From NCBI RefSeq assembly GCF_012275445.1, contig NZ_JAAZQK010000014.1, positions 62,001 through 126,000 on the forward strand: a stretch of 64,000 nucleotides of DNA. The letters run 5' to 3'. A program made the translations under genes and the position numbers. The stretch is from Rhizobacter sp. SG703. Lineage in GTDB: Bacteria > Pseudomonadota > Gammaproteobacteria > Burkholderiales > Burkholderiaceae_C. The notes beneath the pieces were generated by a model. The model did not search any database. It saw only the letters and a program-made list of their open reading frames with translations, and had not been told where the DNA came from. This document shows, piece by piece, positions 56 through 48,964 of the stretch. The first letter of the stretch is position 1; each line of letters opens with the position of its first letter.

Positions 56-1237
56 GTGTCGAACGACTTCCTTTTCACATCCGAATCCGTCTCCGAAGGT
101 CACCCCGACAAGGTGGCTGACCAGATCTCCGACGCCATCCTCGATGCGATCTTCAAGCAGGACCCCCGTTCGCGCGTGGCCGCCGAGACGCTGACGAACA
201 CCGGGTTGGTCGTGCTGGCCGGCGAGATCACCACCAACGCGCACGTCGACTACATCCAGGTCGCGCGCGACACCATCAAGCGCATCGGCTACGACAACAC
301 CGAGTACGGCATCGACTACAAGGGCTGCGCAGTGATGGTCTGCTACGACAAGCAGTCCAACGACATCGCCCAGGGCGTCGACCAGGCGAGCGACGACCAC
401 CTGAACACCGGTGCCGGCGACCAGGGCCTGATGTTCGGCTACGCGTGCGACGAGACGCCGGAGCTGATGCCCGCGCCCATCTATTACGCGCACCGCCTGG
501 TCGAGCGCCAGGCCCAGCTGCGCAAGGACGGCCGCCTGCCGTTCCTGCGCCCCGACGCGAAGAGCCAGGTGACGATGCGCTACGTCGACGGCAAGCCGCA
601 CAGCATCGACACCGTCGTGCTGTCGACGCAGCACAGCCCCGACCAGAGCGAGACGCCGAAGAAGATGAAGGCCTCGTTCAACGAAGCCATCATCGAGGAG
701 ATCATCAAGCCGGTGCTGCCGAAGGAATGGCTGAAGGACACCAAGTACCTGATCAACCCGACCGGCCGCTTCGTCATCGGCGGCCCGCAGGGCGACTGCG
801 GCCTGACCGGCCGCAAGATCATCGTCGACACCTACGGCGGTGCCTGCCCGCACGGCGGCGGCGCGTTCTCGGGCAAGGACCCGAGCAAGGTCGACCGCTC
901 GGCCGCCTATGCGGCGCGCTACGTCGCGAAGAACGTGGTCGCGGCCGGCCTGGCGCGGCAGTGCCAGATCCAGGTGGCGTACGCGATCGGCGTGGCCCGT
1001 CCGATGAACGTGACGGTCTACACCGAAGGCACCGGCGTGATCTCCGACGACAAGATCGCCGCGCTGGTCAACGAGCACTTCGACCTGCGCCCGAAGGGCA
1101 TCATCCAGATGCTCGACCTGCTGCGCCCGATCTACGAGAAGACGGCGGCTTACGGTCACTTCGGCCGTGAAGAGCCGGAGTTCAGCTGGGAAAAGACGGA
1201 CAAGGCGGCGGCGCTGCGCGCAGCAGCCGGGTTGTAG
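56..1237 (+). CDS. metK: S-adenosylmethionine synthase (methionine adenosyltransferase)
   Basis: Makes SAM from methionine and ATP in the cytosol and so feeds the methyl cycle served by ahcY and metF further along. The 393-residue length is normal for the family. Visible signatures are GHPDKVADQ near residue 15 (ATP binding), [12 protein letters not shown] near 120, and the glycine-rich [19 protein letters not shown] loop near 260-280 that binds the phosphates. The start is GTG at 56, with a GGAG about 8 bases upstream inside the end of the preceding gene; no ATG fits the conserved N terminus ([15 protein letters not shown]). There is no room upstream for a SAM riboswitch in this window. Confidence 0.98.
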
Positions 1238-1362
1238 GACCCGCGCGGCGGCGCGCCGCTTGCGTGCAGTAAGTCACCGCGGCCGCAACGGCATCCGGTG
1301 GGCGGCGGGCCGGCGCTACAAAGCGGGGGCCGTCCGTCGATAAACCGGGCGAAGGCATCCCG

Positions 1363-2385
1363 ATGGATGCCGATGGCCCCGTCATGTCCAGCCTGCCCGC
1401 AGCACACCAGTCGCCCCTCACCATCCTCGTCGTCGACGACCAGCCCGCCGTGCGCGTGGCGCTCGTCGCGCAGCTCGATGCGCTGGGCCACCGCGTGCTC
1501 GAGGCCGGCGACGCGACCTGGGCGCTGGACCAGTTCCAGCGCCACAAGCCCGACCTGGTGCTGCTCGACGTGGTGATGCCCGGCCATGACGGCTACTGGC
1601 TGGCGCGCCAGATGCGCCAGGTGGAATCCGGCCGCTGGACCCCGATCATCTTCCTGTCCGCCCGCGACCAGGAGCAGGACCTGTGGAAGGGCATCGAGAG
1701 CGGCGGCGACGACTACCTGGTGAAGCCGGTGTCGACCGTGGTGCTCGCGGCCAAGCTGCGCGCGATGAGCCGCCTGCAGCAGATGCAGGCGCAGCTGATG
1801 CAGGTGTCGGCCGAGCTGCGCACCGCGAACCAGCGGCTGCAGCACCTGAGCGAACTCGACGAATTGACCGGCCTGATCAACCGCCGCGGCTTCGACCGCC
1901 TGCTGCATGCCGAGATCGGCGCGGCGCGGCGCGAGCAACAGCCGCTGACGCTGGTGTTCTGCGACCTCGATGCATTCAAGCCCTACAACGACACGCTCGG
2001 CCATGTGCAGGGCGACGACTGCCTGCGCCGCATCGGCGCGCTGCTGCGCGACGCCTGCCACCGGCCGCGCGACCGCGCGACGCGCTACGGCGGCGAGGAA
2101 TTTGCGCTGATCCTGCCCAACACCCCGAAGTCCGGCGCGATGACCTTCGCGCGCGCGATCCGCCGCATGCTGGCCGGCGTGGCGTTGCCGCACCCGGCCT
2201 CGCCGGTCGGCGCGCTGGTCACGCTGACCGGCGGCATCACCACCTGCGTCCCCGACGCCGAGACCACCGCCGAAGGCATGGTGGTGCGCGCCGACCAGGC
2301 CTTGTACGCCGCGAAGGCGCAGGGGCGCGACCGCTTCTTCAGCTTCGAGATGCAGCTCGACACGGTGGAGCAACTGGAAAGGTAG
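1363..2385 (+). CDS. Response regulator with diguanylate cyclase output (REC-GGDEF)
   Basis: A 340-residue two-domain protein expected to make c-di-GMP when phosphorylated. The receiver domain spans about residues 18-135, with the acidic pair at D25-D26, phospho-acceptor D69 (LLDVVMPG) and conserved K121. A helical linker (133-163, rich in Q, L and M) looks like a dimerising coiled coil. The GGDEF domain follows; its active-site motif is GGEEF at 243-247, an active variant, and RPRD at 234-237 is the product-inhibition I-site. No partner histidine kinase lies next to it, so its input is unknown. The ATG at 1363 has GAAGG about 9 bases upstream; the next ATG (1384) has none. A dispersed repeat begins directly after the stop. 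Confidence 0.93.
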   Translation: MDADGPVMSSLPAAHQSPLTILVVDDQPAVRVALVAQLDALGHRVLEAGDATWALDQFQRHKPDLVLLDVVMPGHDGYWLARQMRQVESGRWTPIIFLSARDQEQDLWKGIESGGDDYLVKPVSTVVLAAKLRAMSRLQQMQAQLMQVSAELRTANQRLQHLSELDELTGLINRRGFDRLLHAEIGAARREQQPLTLVFCDLDAFKPYNDTLGHVQGDDCLRRIGALLRDACHRPRDRATRYGGEEFALILPNTPKSGAMTFARAIRRMLAGVALPHPASPVGALVTLTGGITTCVPDAETTAEGMVVRADQALYAAKAQGRDRFFSFEMQLDTVEQLER

Positions 2386-2443
2386 GGCCTCCGGTCGCTT
2401 TGCTCCTGCCGGAATCCGCGGGGCGTGGCTTGATCTGGTGACA
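2386..2443 (+). repeat. Dispersed intergenic repeat, family R1, short copy
   Basis: Begins immediately after the TAG of the preceding gene with GGCCTCCGGTCGCTTTGCTCC and ends GGCGTGGCTTGATC. The same two ends occur at 11151-11312 and, inverted, at 36123-36198; the central part present in those copies is missing here. No coding capacity is apparent. Confidence 0.7.
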
Positions 2444-2477
2444 TGAACAGGCACACCGATGCCGCATCATTGGTCCC

Positions 2478-3581
2478 ATGCCGATCACCCTCGACCACCT
2501 GCGGCGCTACGCCGTCGCCCGCACGCTTTTCAAACCAACCACGCTGCTGCGCGCGATCCGCCGGCTGGGCTTCGTGCAGGCCGACCCGATCCGCTCGCCG
2601 GCGCGGGCGCAGGACCTGACGCTGCGCCACCGCGTCAAGGACTACCGCGCCGGCGACCTGGAGCGGCGCTATGCGACGCTGCCGGTCGAGGAGGACTGCC
2701 TCGTCAACTACGGCTTCCTGCCGCGCGAGCACCTGGCGCTGATGCATCCGCGCATTGCGAAGACCGAATGGGACCGCGCGACCCGGCGTCGCGCCGCCGA
2801 TGTGCTGGCGTTCGTGCGCGAGCGCGGCCGTGTGCACCCGCGCGAGGTCGACGAGCATTTCGCGCACGGCCGCGTCACCAACTACTGGGGCGGCTCGTCG
2901 AATGCCAGCACGCACCTGCTGGACGGCATGCACTACCGCGGCATGCTGCGCGTCGTGCGGCGCGATGCCGGCATCCGCGTCTACGAGGCGGTCGAGCACG
3001 CGCCGGCCGACGAGAGCCCGGCCGAGCGGGCGCGCCGCGCCGCCGCGCTGCTGGCGTTGATCGTGCGCAAGTACGCGCCGTTGCCGGCGCGCAGCCTGAC
3101 CCACCTGACCGGGTTGCTGAACTACGGCGCGCCGCACCTGAAGACGCAGACGCAGGCGGCGATGAAGCTGGCGCGCGAGCAGCTCGCGAGCCTGCAACTC
3201 GACGGCGTCACCTGGTACTGGCCGGCCGATGAAAACCCGGCCTCGCGCCGCCACGCGCCCGACGACGCGGTGCGCCTGCTCGCGCCGTTCGACCCGGTCG
3301 TCTGGGACCGCATCCGCTTCGAGCTGCTGTGGGACTGGGCATACCGTTTCGAGGCCTACACGCCGGCACCGAAGCGCAGGTTCGGCTACTACGCGCTGCC
3401 GCTGCTGTGGCACGACCGGGTGATCGGCTGGGGCAACCTGTCGATGGTGGGCGGGCAGCTGAAGCAGCAGTTCGGCTACGTGGACGGCCGGGCACCGCGC
3501 GATCCGGCGTTCAAGACGGCGCTGGCCGACGAGATCGCGCGGATGCGCAGCTTCCTCGGGGCCGATTCAACCGGCCGGTAG
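2478..3581 (+). CDS. Winged-helix DNA glycosylase of the YcaQ/AlkX family (HTH_42)
   Basis: A 367-residue protein of the HTH_42 superfamily whose characterised members (E. coli YcaQ/AlkX, Streptomyces AlkZ) unhook DNA interstrand crosslinks. The family's catalytic Q-x-Q/D motif is visible as QAD at residues 34-36 (GFVQADPI), the YcaQ-type variant, followed by RSPARAQD. Motifs further on (NYGFLPREHL, TNYWGGSSNASTHLLDGMHYRGML, a winged helix) fit the three-wing architecture. Its end overlaps the end of the convergent MFS gene by 15 bases. It has no Shine-Dalgarno; a CATCAT hexamer lies 7 bases before ATG, so it may be leaderless. Function is by homology; substrate range is not visible. Confidence 0.85.
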   Translation: MPITLDHLRRYAVARTLFKPTTLLRAIRRLGFVQADPIRSPARAQDLTLRHRVKDYRAGDLERRYATLPVEEDCLVNYGFLPREHLALMHPRIAKTEWDRATRRRAADVLAFVRERGRVHPREVDEHFAHGRVTNYWGGSSNASTHLLDGMHYRGMLRVVRRDAGIRVYEAVEHAPADESPAERARRAAALLALIVRKYAPLPARSLTHLTGLLNYGAPHLKTQTQAAMKLAREQLASLQLDGVTWYWPADENPASRRHAPDDAVRLLAPFDPVVWDRIRFELLWDWAYRFEAYTPAPKRRFGYYALPLLWHDRVIGWGNLSMVGGQLKQQFGYVDGRAPRDPAFKTALADEIARMRSFLGADSTGR

Positions 3582-4745
3582 CGGCCGCTGCCGGGCCGCG
3601 AGCGACGCCGCCAGCGCCAGCACGCCGGCCGATGCGGCCAGCCCGGCGCGCAGGCCGCCCGGCCCGTCTGCCAGCCAGCCGACCAGGCTCGGGCCGACGA
3701 TCTGCCCGGCCGCGAACACCGTCGTGAAGGCCGCGATGCCGGCCGGCCACGCGGCAGCCGGCAGGTTGTGCCGCACCAGCGCGGTGGTCGATGCGACGAC
3801 CGACAGGAACACGCCGCCGAACAGCGCGCCCGAGGCGAAGCCGGCCAGCGGGTGCGCGCTGACGACCGGCAGCAGCGTCGCCACCGCGAGCAGCGCGTTC
3901 AGCAGTGCCATCGGCTGCCCGCCGCGCCAGCGCTGCAACAGCCCGGCCCACAACCATGACGACGCGATCACGCCGACGCCGAGCAGCGCATAGAACACGG
4001 TGATCAGTCCGCTGCCGAGTTGCTGCTCGCGCAGCAGCGTCACCGAGAACGTCATGTAGCCGATGTAGCCGAGGCCGAACAGCGTGTACGACGCGAGGCC
4101 GAACACGAAGTCGCGCGGCCGGAAGCCGGTGCGTGCCGACGCGGGGGCCGGCGCGGCGTCCAGGCTGCGCGTGCCGCGCGCGGTGATGGCGGTGGCCAGC
4201 AGGGCCGCGGCGCCCAGCGCGATCCACGCCCACTGCCAGGCGTGCGGCTGGGCCAGCGCCACCAGCGGCGGCACCAGCAGCGCCGACGCGACGATGCCGA
4301 TCCCGGTGCCGCCGTAGTACAGCCCGAGGATCAGCCCGGCGCGGGCGGCGCCGTCGCTGCCGACCAGGCGCGCCGCCATCAGCCCGCCGGAGATGAAGAC
4401 GGCGGCGCTGGCGATGCCGGTCGCGAGCCGCAGCGCGTACAGCGCCGCATCCGAGCCGACGAGGCCGTGCGCCGCCAGCATCAGCGCGGCCGACACGCTG
4501 CCCGCCAGCAGCACGCGGCGCACGCCGACGCGCGCCAGCGCCAGCGGCGTGGCCAGCGCGCCGAGCAGGTAGCCGGCCGCGTTGACGGTGTTCATCGCGC
4601 CGGCGGTCAGGTAGCTCCAGCCGAGGTCGGTGCGCATCGCCGGCAACAGCAGCGCATAGGAGAAGCGCGCCAGCCCGAGCGACACCGCGGCCGCGAGGGC
4701 GAGCGCGGCTGCGGTGCGCAGCGTCGATGGGGTGGAGGAGCTCAT
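3567..4745 (-). CDS. Major facilitator superfamily transporter (YbfB/YjiJ-like)
   Basis: A 392-residue inner-membrane protein with about 12 hydrophobic helices and short loops, including the YbfB/YjiJ-type start (AVSLGLARFSYALLLPAM) and GAMNTVNAAGYLLGA near residue 50. Members are predicted drug or metabolite exporters; the substrate cannot be read from the sequence. It stands alone, convergent with the YcaQ-like gene and divergent from the transglutaminase gene. Codon use matches the neighbours. Confidence 0.88.
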   Translation of the reverse strand: MSSSTPSTLRTAAALALAAAVSLGLARFSYALLLPAMRTDLGWSYLTAGAMNTVNAAGYLLGALATPLALARVGVRRVLLAGSVSAALMLAAHGLVGSDAALYALRLATGIASAAVFISGGLMAARLVGSDGAARAGLILGLYYGGTGIGIVASALLVPPLVALAQPHAWQWAWIALGAAALLATAITARGTRSLDAAPAPASARTGFRPRDFVFGLASYTLFGLGYIGYMTFSVTLLREQQLGSGLITVFYALLGVGVIASSWLWAGLLQRWRGGQPMALLNALLAVATLLPVVSAHPLAGFASGALFGGVFLSVVASTTALVRHNLPAAAWPAGIAAFTTVFAAGQIVGPSLVGWLADGPGGLRAGLAASAGVLALAASLAARQRPLPAG

Positions 4746-45297: not shown

Positions 45298-46362
45298 TCA
45301 GACCACCATCTGCGCCAGCTCGCCCTTCGCATAGCGCTGCGCCACCTGTTGCAGACTCTGCGCCTTGATCTTGCCCGCCTGCCCCTCGCAGCCGAACTCC
45401 AGGTAGCGCTGCCTGCAGATCGCCTTGGCGGCTTCGCGCGCCGGCTTCAGGTATTCGCGCGGGTCGAACTTCTCGGGGTGCTGCACGAAGAACTTGCGGA
45501 TGGCCGCCGTCATCGCGAGGCGGATGTCGGTGTCGATGTTGATCTTGCGCACGCCGTGCTTGATGGCTTCCTGGATCTCGCTGACCGGCACGCCGTAGGT
45601 TTCCTTCATGTCGCCGCCGAACTCGCGGATCGCGGCCAGCAGCTCCTGCGGCACGCTCGAACTGCCGTGCATCACCAGGTGGGTGTTCGGGATGCGGGCG
45701 TGGATTTCCTTGATGCGGCCGATCGCGAGGATGTCGCCGGTCGGCTTGCGGGTGAACTTGTAGGCGCCGTGGCTGGTGCCGATCGCGATGGCCAGCGCGT
45801 CGAGCTGGGTGCGCTTGACGAAGTCGGCGGCCTGCTCCGGGTCGGTCAGCAGCTGGTCCAGCGTCATCGTCGCGTCGGTACCGTGGCCGTCTTCCTTGTC
45901 GCCCTTCATCGTCTCGAGCGAACCGAGCACGCCGAGCTCGCCTTCGACGGTGACGCCGACCCGGTGCGCCATGTCGACCACCTTGCGCGTCACGTCGACG
46001 TTGTAGTCGTAGCTGGCGATGGTCTTGCCGTCGGCCTGCAGCGAGCCGTCCATCATCACCGAGCTGAAGCCGAGGGCGATCGCGCCCTGGCAGACGTCCG
46101 GGTTCTGGCCGTGGTCCTGGTGCATCACCAATGGAACCCGGGGGTAACTTTCAACCGCCGCAAGGATCAGGTGCTTGATGAACGGCTCGCCGGCGTACTT
46201 GCGGGCGCCGGCGCTGGCCTGCAGGATGACCGGGGCGCCGACCTCGTCGGCGGCGCTCATCACGGCCTGCACCTGTTCGAGGTTGTTGACGTTGAAGGCC
46301 GGAATTCCGTAGCCGTTCTCGGCGGCATGGTCCAGCAGCTGGCGCATTGAAACGAGTGGCAT
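45298..46362 (-). CDS. fbaA: Class II fructose-1,6-bisphosphate aldolase
   Basis: A zinc-dependent glycolytic and gluconeogenic enzyme (354 residues). [11 protein letters not shown] holds a zinc-binding His, [12 protein letters not shown] is the active-site strand, and [10 protein letters not shown] binds phosphate. The sequence is of the subtype annotated in Calvin-cycle operons, but no Calvin-cycle genes are present here. A TACAAT element lies 65 bases upstream. Confidence 0.97.
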
Positions 46363-46426
46363 GGCGATGACCCAGGAAGTGAAGAAACCCTTCAGCCGGC
46401 ATGAAACCGCGCTGTAACTCCGGGCG

Positions 46427-46432: not shown

Positions 46433-46645
46433 CTGACGGGCCCCGCGGGAAAACCCCGCCGGCATGAGGACCTCCCATGACCGCGGGGTGCCCGGGGGGG
46501 CCGCGGGCTTTTGCAGGAAACGGGCCGGCCCGCCGGCTGCGGAACTGGGCCGGCTTTGCCTTGCTTTTCCGGCTCAAGCCGGCGCGGACGCGGCGGACAC
46601 TGGACGCCAACATCCGACCGCTCGCCCCGCTGGAGGGAACCCGCC

Positions 46646-47668
46646 ATGGCCCGACTCGACCTGAATGCACTCACCCTGTGGATCACCGCTGCCGCGCAGC
46701 AGCAGCCGACCGAACTCGCGTCGCAGCTGATGCAGCGCGCCGGGGTGTCGCGCGCCACTGCCAACAAGGCCTTGCGGCGGCTGACCGAGATGGGCTGGCT
46801 GGTGCGCGAAGGCGCCGTCTCGCGACCGAGCTACCGGCCGGGCGTGATGCGCCAGGTGGTGCAGCGCTACCCGCTCGACGGCCTGTCGGAAGACCTGCCA
46901 TGGGCGCGCGACTTCGCACCGTTCTTCGCCTTCCCCGATGCGGTGCGTCGCATGGTGCACCACGCGTTCACCGAGCTGCTGAACAACGCGATCGACCACA
47001 GCGCCGGCCGCCAGGTCACGGTGTCGCTGCGCCAGACCGCGAGCCATGCGCAGCTGCTGGTGTCGGACGACGGTCGCGGCGTGTTCGACAAGATCAATGA
47101 AGCCTTCGCGCTCGACGAGCCGCACCTCGCGATGCTCGAGCTCAGCAAGGGCAAGCTGACCAGCGCGCCGGACCGTCACTGCGGCCGCGGGCTGTTCTTC
47201 ACGTCGAAGCTGGCCGACGTGTTCGACCTGCATGCGAACGAATCGGCCTTCCAGCACCGCGGCTGGGAAGCCGGCCGCTGGCGCGAAGGCAAGCCGCTGA
47301 AGTGCCACGGCACCTCGGTCTACGCCGCGTTCGCGCTCGACAGCACGCGCTCGCTGGAAGCGGTGCTGCAGGCGCACAGCGCCGACGGCGCTGGCTACGA
47401 CTTCGAGCGCACCGTGGTGCCGCTGCGCCTGCTGACGACGACGCAATCGGGGTTGGAGTCGCGCTCGCAGGCGCGCCGTGTCGGCGCCCGGCTGAACCAG
47501 TTCCGCCGCGCCGAGGTGGATTTCAGCGGGATCAGCAGCGTCGGGCACAGTTTTGCGGACGAGCTGTTCCGCGTGCTCGCCACGGAGCAGCAGGGGCTGG
47601 AGCTGGTGCCGATCAACATGCTGCCGGCGGTGGCGGCGATGGTCGGCAGCATTCGGAGCGCCGCCTGA
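46646..47668 (+). CDS. Winged-helix / GHKL ATPase / STAS-like DUF4325 fusion protein
   Basis: A 340-residue cytosolic protein with three parts. Residues 5-70 look like a winged helix ([22 protein letters not shown]). Residues 95-235 form a GHKL ATPase: N-box E110-L-L-N-N114-A-I-D-H, G1 box D141-D-G-R-G and G2 box G180-R-G182-LFFTSK. Residues 265-340 match the STAS-like DUF4325 ([21 protein letters not shown]). In partner-switching systems, the ATPase (RsbW/SpoIIAB-like) phosphorylates a Ser of a separate STAS protein; here both would sit in one chain beside a DNA-binding part. GGAGG precedes ATG 46646. Isolated and convergent with ilvA. Function unknown. Confidence 0.85.
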
Positions 47669-47758: not shown

Positions 47759-48964
47759 TCACCCGATTCTTTCGGCGCGGTAACCCTGCGCCCGCATCGC
47801 CGCCAGGATCTCCTCGATGTGGGCCACGCCGCGCGTGTGCACCACCACCTCGATCTCCGCGCGTTCCACCGACAGCGAGCTGAACGCCCGCTGGTGCTGC
47901 ACCTCGTCGATGTTGGCGCCCAGCTTGCCGAGCAGCGTCGCGACGTCGGCCAGCGCGCCCGGCACGTCGCGCACGTCCATGCGCAGGCGCGCGAGCCGGC
48001 CCGACTTCACCATGCCGCGCTGGATGATCTCGCCCAGCACCAGCGGCTCGATGTTGCCGCCGCACAGGATCAGCCCGACCTTGCGGCCGGCGAAGCGTGC
48101 CCGATGCTTCATCAAGGCCGCGAGGCCGACGGCGCCGGCGCCTTCGACCACCGTCTTCTCGATCTCCAGCAGCATCAGGATCGCCTGCTCGATGTCGTCC
48201 TCGCCGACCAGCAGCACGTCGTCGACATGCTGCTTGATCAGCGGCACGGTGGCGGCACCGGGCACCTTGACGCCGATGCCGTCGGCGATGGTGGCCTGCG
48301 CGCTCTCGCGCTGCTGGCCGTGCACCGCATTCCAGACGGCCGGGAAGCGCTCGGTCTGCACGCCGATCACCTGGATGCCGGGCTTCAGCGCCTTGGCCGC
48401 GGTGGCCACGCCGCCGATCAAGCCGCCGCCGCCGATCGCGACCACCAGCGTGTCGAGCGTCGGCTGCTGCGCGAGCATCTCCAGGCCGAGCGTGCCCTGG
48501 CCGGCCGCCACCTGCAGGTCGTCGTAGGGGTGCACCAGCGTCAGGGCGCGCTCCTGCGCCAGCCGCAGGCCGTGCGCGCGCGCATCGTCGAAGGTATCGC
48601 CTTCGAGCACCACGGTGGCGCCGAAGCCGCGCGTGCGTTCGACCTTCACCGCCGGCGCGAAGCGCGGCATCACGATGGTGGCGGGAATGCCCAACCGCTG
48701 CGCGTGGTACGCGACGCCCTGGGCATGGTTGCCGGCCGACACGGCGAGCACCCCACGCGCGCGCTCGATGTCGCTCAGCTGGGCGATCTTGTTGAGGGCG
48801 CCGCGCTCCTTGAACGAGGCGGTGAACTGCAGGTTCTCGAATTTCAGGAACACCTCGCAGCCGGCGATGGCCGAGAGGGTTCGCGAGGGAACGCAGGGGG
48901 TGTCGAGCACCTGGCCGTGCAGGCGCTCGGCGGCGGCACGGATATCAGCGAGGGCGAGCGTCAT
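47759..48964 (-). CDS. ilvA: Threonine ammonia-lyase (PLP) with C-terminal ACT domain
   Basis: Deaminates threonine to 2-oxobutyrate. The 401-residue protein binds PLP through the Lys of TASFKERGA and holds its phosphate with IGGGGLIGG. SAGNHAQGVAYHA is also typical. Residues 325-401 form one ACT domain (LRMDVRDVPGALADVATLLG), as in the short, catabolic-type enzyme, rather than the two of classical biosynthetic IlvA; the symbol is therefore tentative. It starts 19 bases after pyk, in the same operon as pyk and pgk. Confidence 0.92.
   Translation of the reverse strand: MTLALADIRAAAERLHGQVLDTPCVPSRTLSAIAGCEVFLKFENLQFTASFKERGALNKIAQLSDIERARGVLAVSAGNHAQGVAYHAQRLGIPATIVMPRFAPAVKVERTRGFGATVVLEGDTFDDARAHGLRLAQERALTLVHPYDDLQVAAGQGTLGLEMLAQQPTLDTLVVAIGGGGLIGGVATAAKALKPGIQVIGVQTERFPAVWNAVHGQQRESAQATIADGIGVKVPGAATVPLIKQHVDDVLLVGEDDIEQAILMLLEIEKTVVEGAGAVGLAALMKHRARFAGRKVGLILCGGNIEPLVLGEIIQRGMVKSGRLARLRMDVRDVPGALADVATLLGKLGANIDEVQHQRAFSSLSVERAEIEVVVHTRGVAHIEEILAAMRAQGYRAERIG

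Follow-up and report, generated by a model that had tools for sequence, protein, structure and literature searches.

Partner switching depends on the phosphorylation of a separate STAS protein, and the question raised by this locus is how a switch may work when the kinase-like domain, its STAS-like partner and a DNA-binding-like segment are all carried on one chain. The window (the whole stretch of DNA analysed, 64,000 nucleotides from Rhizobacter sp. SG703) contains one gene of this kind, which is placed as follows:

45298..46362, minus strand: fba, the divergent neighbour conserved in the clade (from neighbour comparison)
46632..46637, plus strand: Shine-Dalgarno-like GGAGGG, read directly, 8 bases 5' of the ATG
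46646..47668, plus strand: coding sequence of the wHTH-GHKL-DUF4325 protein (340 amino acids plus stop, ATG start)

The first-pass annotation of this DNA had described an isolated gene with a strong Shine-Dalgarno sequence inside a housekeeping cluster, and this description agrees with what was found: GGAGGG stands at the expected place, the gene is a single plus-strand gene flanked by minus-strand genes, and the genes around it are fba, purC, ilvA, pyk and pgk. Its start and reading frame are common to relatives, dN/dS between the window gene and same-genus copies is 0.13–0.43 in 7/7 pairs, and the gene was found in 11/11 genomes of the genus (its own and 10 others searched). The 340-amino-acid open reading frame is a real gene under purifying selection. 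A sigma-70 scan found neither a promoter nor a terminator; a CTTTTC...GACACT block, located 25–53 bases 5' of the start in the regions that possess it, may be the promoter of the gene.

Beyond the genus, the gene was detected (E ≤ 1e-15, own genome included, a few partial matches among the counts) in 64/299 genomes of the family, 16/200 of the order and 7/398 of the phylum. A scan of named genomes revealed at least 513 relatives among at least 587 candidate stretches, of which the best 80 were kept (78 full length and 2 ending at contig ends). These include Burkholderiales, Rhodanobacter and Stenotrophomonas. Individual MAG contigs placed in Planctomycetota, Acidobacteriota, Cyanobacteriota and Bacteroidota also carry relatives, although these placements may reflect binning errors. 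The alignment used below comprises 68 sequences, i.e. the window protein and 67 of the 78 full-length relatives, with 11 near-duplicates and the same-genus copies left out. The parts of the protein, with their conservation in this alignment, are (all on the plus strand):

46646..46864, plus strand: winged-helix-like N-terminal segment, residues 1–73 (Pfam HTH families below cut-off; PDB profile matches)
46889..46903, plus strand: linker residues E82–W86 (E82 and W86 invariant in 68/68)
46937..47341, plus strand: GHKL ATPase domain, residues 98–232 (Pfam HATPase_c_2; profile match to split GHKL kinases)
46973..46999, plus strand: N box E110-xxx-N114-xxx-H118 (E110, N114 and H118 in 68/68)
47066..47080, plus strand: G1 box D141-x-G143-x-G145 (68/68)
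47183..47191, plus strand: G2 box G180-x-G182 (68/68)
47408..47665, plus strand: C-terminal STAS-like DUF4325, residues 255–340 (Pfam over cut-off; standalone-DUF4325 profile)
47546..47548, plus strand: H301, in the column of the VapS acceptor Ser48 (alignment via split proteins; Q in 37, H in 28 and P in 3 of 68)

The three-module architecture proposed earlier (a DNA-binding-like N terminus, a GHKL ATPase and DUF4325) is also what Pfam returns, and the HMM check suggested for it was positive for two segments and gave matches below the cut-offs for the third. HATPase_c_2 (PF13581, residues 94–197) reached 40.4 bits against a curated cut-off of 27.4 and DUF4325 (PF14213, residues 275–321) 39.8 bits against 23, and both were detected in 68/68 aligned sequences (E ≤ 0.01). 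At the N terminus, winged-helix families match approximately residues 24–56, every one of them below its cut-off (GntR 23.5 bits of 27, MarR_2 22.7 of 27, HTH_IclR 20.2 of 22); residues 5–71 match MarR-type regulators and CodY with E-values of 0.012–0.3 in a PDB chain profile search, and an HTH family such as MarR_2 was detected in 35/68 aligned sequences (E ≤ 0.01). Among the three modules, the winged helix is thus the least certain.

The ATP site described in the first-pass annotation (N114, D141–G145, G180–G182) is intact. Conservation of this pocket across homologues had been set beforehand as a refuting test of the switch model, and the key residues were found in 68/68 sequences. The full set of invariant positions consists of E110, N113, N114, H118, D141, G143, G145, E165, K168, G169, H178, G180 and G182, together with E82, W86 and G300. 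When residues 99–232 were compared with a profile built from seven split GHKL kinases, they matched it (96.2%, E 2.1e-9), and the domain has a kinase-type ATP site as in CapK/VapK kinases. The E-xxx-N-xxx-H N box is a motif that we take to be akin to that of anti-sigma kinases. It is shared, like the HATPase_c_2 family, with partner switching of the SpoIIAB/RsbW type, from which the protein differs in that its partner domain is fused and lacks an acceptor; no linked gene for an anti-sigma antagonist or a sigma factor was seen.

The nearest described kin are CapK + CapS and VapKSC, in which the STAS protein is encoded apart from the GHKL kinase that phosphorylates it; these, and the statements on them below, are taken from Chambers et al. 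(EMBO J, June 2026, PMC13373217). In CapK the activator is ssDNA, modelled as lying between the STAS and GHKL domains, and the protein phosphorylated is CapS; VapK is proposed to act on VapS in the same way. The earlier statement that the role of the architecture is not described needs revision in view of these split kin; of the fused form, no description was found in the open-access literature searched, supplements aside. CapK + CapS resembles the window protein in that GHKL kinase-like, STAS and HTH parts together make up a regulatory unit. By its published description, the order in CapK is HTH-STAS-GHKL, as against wHTH-GHKL-DUF4325 here, and CapS, a STAS-wHTH protein of its own, has an acceptor, Ser54, that is absolutely conserved, whereas the window protein is one chain with no acceptor. 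Where CapK and VapK carry a STAS domain N-terminal to the GHKL domain, the window protein has an HTH-like segment. The likeness to VapKSC is that standalone DUF4325 proteins match VapS (PDB 9Z7O) and the fused DUF4325 matches the standalone ones (97.0%, E 9.1e-11, against their profile), and VapK-like kinases are among those that the GHKL domain matches. In the same source VapS is an antitoxin on its own chain whose acceptor is Ser48, and the window DUF4325 is fused and acceptor-less; VapK begins with a STAS domain and lacks an HTH, and a gene for the VapC nuclease comes after, none of which holds for the window gene. No capS or vapS gene adjoins the window gene (the adjoining genes are fba and ilvA), and CapS (9Z71) was not among the matches of the PDB sequence searches. 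Judged by these alignments, the protein is a variant of this kin that lies on one chain and has lost the acceptor. The linker positions E82 and W86, which separate the winged-helix segment from the ATPase domain, show no exception in the alignment, for no apparent reason. In CapK, W68 is reported to be necessary for ssDNA activation (PMC13373217); it is a tryptophan like W86, but the two are not equated here.

The main rival to the single-chain regulator favoured below is a CapK/VapK-like protein with Ser/Thr kinase activity that acts in trans on an unlinked STAS protein or another substrate. In such a protein DUF4325 would have a structural or sensing job, to which that of the internal STAS domain of CapK is likened, and the winged helix would be accessory. 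Every kinase-type ATP-site residue is kept and the GHKL domain matches split kinases, as this reading expects, and deletion of the CapK HTH left CapS phosphorylation unaffected (both points on CapK from PMC13373217). Against it, no recurrent partner gene adjoins the gene, and a DUF4325 search of its own genome (other STAS proteins lying outside that search) found no standalone DUF4325, the sole match being the 340-amino-acid gene itself. We regard a trans-acting kinase as doubtful, with a real minority share of the probability.

A survey of DUF4325 in 15/150 phylum genomes and 34/229 class genomes in which it was found revealed three forms. The split form, a small DUF4325 protein adjoining a GHKL gene, is present at 14 loci with a neighbouring GHKL match (6 of the 14 are contained in the GHKL kinase profile used in the survey). 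Window-type GHKL-DUF4325 fusions were found at 18 loci, some ending at contig ends, when counted by GHKL-DUF4325 alone, without a winged-helix criterion. A second one-chain fusion, STAS-GHKL-DUF4325 (L170, L173, L174 and L178; open frame of approximately 425–530 amino acids), has GHKL and DUF4325 on a single chain like the window protein, but with a STAS-like segment (by eye) at the N terminus where the latter has its winged helix, and with Pro-His-Ser ahead of the conserved Phe. Apparent fragments of the fused form (L203, L217, L222 and L225) and two loci without a neighbouring GHKL match on their stretches (L164 and L176) were left out of the counts. A PIN-type gene is also present at the split loci L167 and L168 (by eye) and on a Deinococcus plasmid (annotated), which in this respect are like VapKSC; on the plasmid (D. 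gobiensis P5, L232:2081-3927) an HTH regulator is followed by ATP-binding, STAS-like and PIN proteins in a row, and this set looks like a vapKSC operon. Two near-identical viral contig loci (L022 and L023, 3959-5192) encode a split pair, a 314-amino-acid GHKL protein and an overlapping 98-amino-acid DUF4325 protein, and a Leptospira plasmid carries a relative of the former. The window gene had no match among the phage or plasmid records searched, and its PADLOC matches were weak and confined to the HTH part; it was therefore set aside as a mobile or defence gene in its own right.

The first-pass annotation had proposed a one-chain switch that phosphorylates its own DUF4325 at S294, S297, S298 or S302. 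These residues exist, and a kinase-like domain does share the chain with its usual substrate domain, but Ser/Thr occurs at the four positions in only 15, 13, 6 and 2 of 68 sequences, respectively. Among the 11 copies of the genus, 9 have Ser and 2 have Gly at S302, so that a phosphosite specific to this lineage is conceivable there, and other C-terminal hydroxyls are conserved (T256 in 68/68 and S272 in 67/68). The acceptor column of the split kin contradicts the proposal further. No direct PDB match to the DUF4325 of the window protein was found in PDB sequence and profile searches, and its link to VapS runs through split proteins as intermediates: Escherichia VapS (9Z7O) matches one split DUF4325 protein with an E-value of 7.4e-14 and a nine-row profile of split DUF4325 proteins with 8e-17. 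The VapS phospho-acceptor, given as Ser48 in PMC13373217, is residue 66 of the 134-residue 9Z7O chain (own count, offset 18) and stands 2 residues before a conserved Phe. Since the alignment of fused and split DUF4325 is gapless through the acceptor motif, H301 is placed in the Ser48 column, where Ser/Thr occurs in 0/68 sequences. In an additional survey, Ser/Thr was absent from the three positions ahead of the Phe in 18/18 fused forms, while 13/13 readable split forms had at least one there, exactly at the acceptor column in 9/13 and not in the other 4/13 (the L167 row was taken from the alignment, the rows of L226, L228 and L231 were inspected by eye, and L221 was left out). As far as these alignments tell, the conserved acceptor Ser/Thr of the CapS/VapS substrates is missing in the window family, and autophosphorylation on the DUF4325 serines is very unlikely.

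With the acceptor gone in every aligned relative, DUF4325 is most likely a non-phosphorylatable docking partner. The reading we prefer, tentatively and at somewhat less than even chances, is a single-chain ATP-dependent DNA-binding regulator in which DUF4325 is the docked partner and the nucleotide sets the switch. In this regulator DUF4325, a substrate-like STAS domain fused behind the GHKL domain, would dock on that domain as a built-in partner; the docking state would be set by nucleotide, probably together with a second ligand (perhaps ssDNA), rather than by Ser phosphorylation, and the winged helix would then bind or release an operator. DNA binding, docking, nucleotide control and a regulated target in Rhizobacter are what we infer beyond the kept ATP site and the lost acceptor.

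The surroundings of the gene bear on what such a regulator may control. Whether homologues keep the same neighbours has a divided answer: in the clade of the window fba is the divergent neighbour, and in other lineages the gene is found elsewhere. fba is directly divergent within 600 bp at 39/80 of the best named loci and at 13/16 nearer loci, and by contrast the pyk side has inserted genes in many loci. The relatives beside fba form one clade (support 100/100). In at least 8/24 fba loci of non-carriers (e.g. L180, L184, L187 and L194) pyk lies directly next to fba in the same orientation, which suggests that the gene was set, on the opposite strand, into an older pyk-fba-purC cluster. In the window ilvA (47759-48964) lies between the gene and pyk, as it does at 8/10 same-genus loci (not found at L030; the contig of L032 stops short of it).

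The constancy of the fba position would fit a regulator that senses cellular ATP or ADP and acts locally, on the divergent genes fba and purC. We consider it quite improbable, with the gene sited elsewhere in other lineages and the one conserved repeat of the fba leader also present where the gene is not. This repeat, GTTAC-N6-GTTAC (direct), lies just after a -10-like element (window 46380-46400, one arm being altered in the window copy) and occurs in 44/53 carrier regions versus 6/24 fba leaders of non-carriers (21 genomes; L184, L188, L189 and L193-L195). As a site of the 340-amino-acid protein it was dropped for that reason, and it is possibly the operator of another fba regulator. No inverted repeat was common to more than 4/52 regions (the best repeat of any kind reached 2–4 in ten shuffles), and no operator for the protein was found in the carrier intergenic regions.

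At the 39 loci without fba, an all-against-all neighbour search revealed no family in more than 5 loci, which was counted in favour of the single-chain regulator; the groups that did appear were judged spurious or unrelated. The link to Hma described below was not seen in this search because just two of those loci carry Hma.

Relatives outside the clade of the window were examined for defence context by searching 230 neighbour ORFs at 63 loci with PADLOC (E ≤ 1e-20). The neighbour set leaves out the duplicates L234, L132 and L134, and L249, where the gene was not found. In raw counts, the gene is within or next to a defence operon at 8/63 loci (5 Hma, 1 BREX and 2 type I R-M), all on the strand of the gene; CapKS, by comparison, is usually placed in defence operons. 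Hma, a helicase-methylase-ATPase system, is a candidate for a defence function according to PMC8565338. hmaB and hmaC flank the gene on its two sides in L138, L236, L237 and L260, and in L150, a short contig, hmaC is beside it (L236, L150 and hmaB of L260 were assigned by similarity to L138). In L235 pglX is on one side and on the other a 1164-amino-acid protein, which is taken to be the single BrxC match of the tally. The gene of L143 stands between type I genes, with hsdM and hsdS before it and hsdR behind, and in L156 a type I REase follows. Loci L146 and L244 (mad3 kinase-like, DpdF/RecQ-like) and L141 (PolA-like) were judged generic and left out of the 8/63, and single PADLOC matches to AbiEii, SoFic, Drt4, Drt6 and others fall outside this locus-traced count.

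The control comprised 114/155 ORFs of the fba clade at 30/41 loci, with PADLOC matches to 33 families; among the 25 listed, all were retron-type RT plus one NDT, each in one member. The PADLOC tallies cover the families listed (25 of 96 and 25 of 81). The recurrent position within Hma operons is a stronger point than the comparison of 8/63 with the control. The five Hma copies form one clade (support 96/87), so this position is possibly the result of one event. The window gene itself has no immune operon, its neighbours being housekeeping genes.

Several peculiarities of the Hma loci were also observed. The relative in the Hma operon L138:4833-12965 has 452 amino acids, with extra C-terminal sequence, and one member of the alignment with nucleotidyltransferase matches is taken to be this relative; a 112-amino-acid HEPN-like ORF (by eye) follows it. 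In L260:1193-4072 hmaB is read as two ORFs (1193-3139 and 3254-4072), although tblastn aligns it as one continuous piece, and it is possibly interrupted.

Where relatives lie within Hma, BREX or type I R-M operons, they are candidates for a built-in regulator of these systems, a description of which was not found in the literature searched; in the accessible main text of a BREX survey (PMC12839542) the terms STAS, GHKL, HATPase, DUF4325 and CapK do not occur. On the widest reading, which we offer as speculation and think rather unlikely as a whole, a fused kinase, substrate and DNA binder has abandoned the phosphate step and become an ATP-gated transcription factor that senses stress (possibly ssDNA, as CapK does) and, in several lineages, regulates the Hma, BREX and R-M operons in which it lies, and one Burkholderiales clade has co-opted it beside the glycolytic gene fba. 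A family that has kept the kinase site, fused the partner and, by the alignments, lost the acceptor would be a natural experiment on whether the ATP site of a partner-switching kinase can serve as a pure conformational switch.
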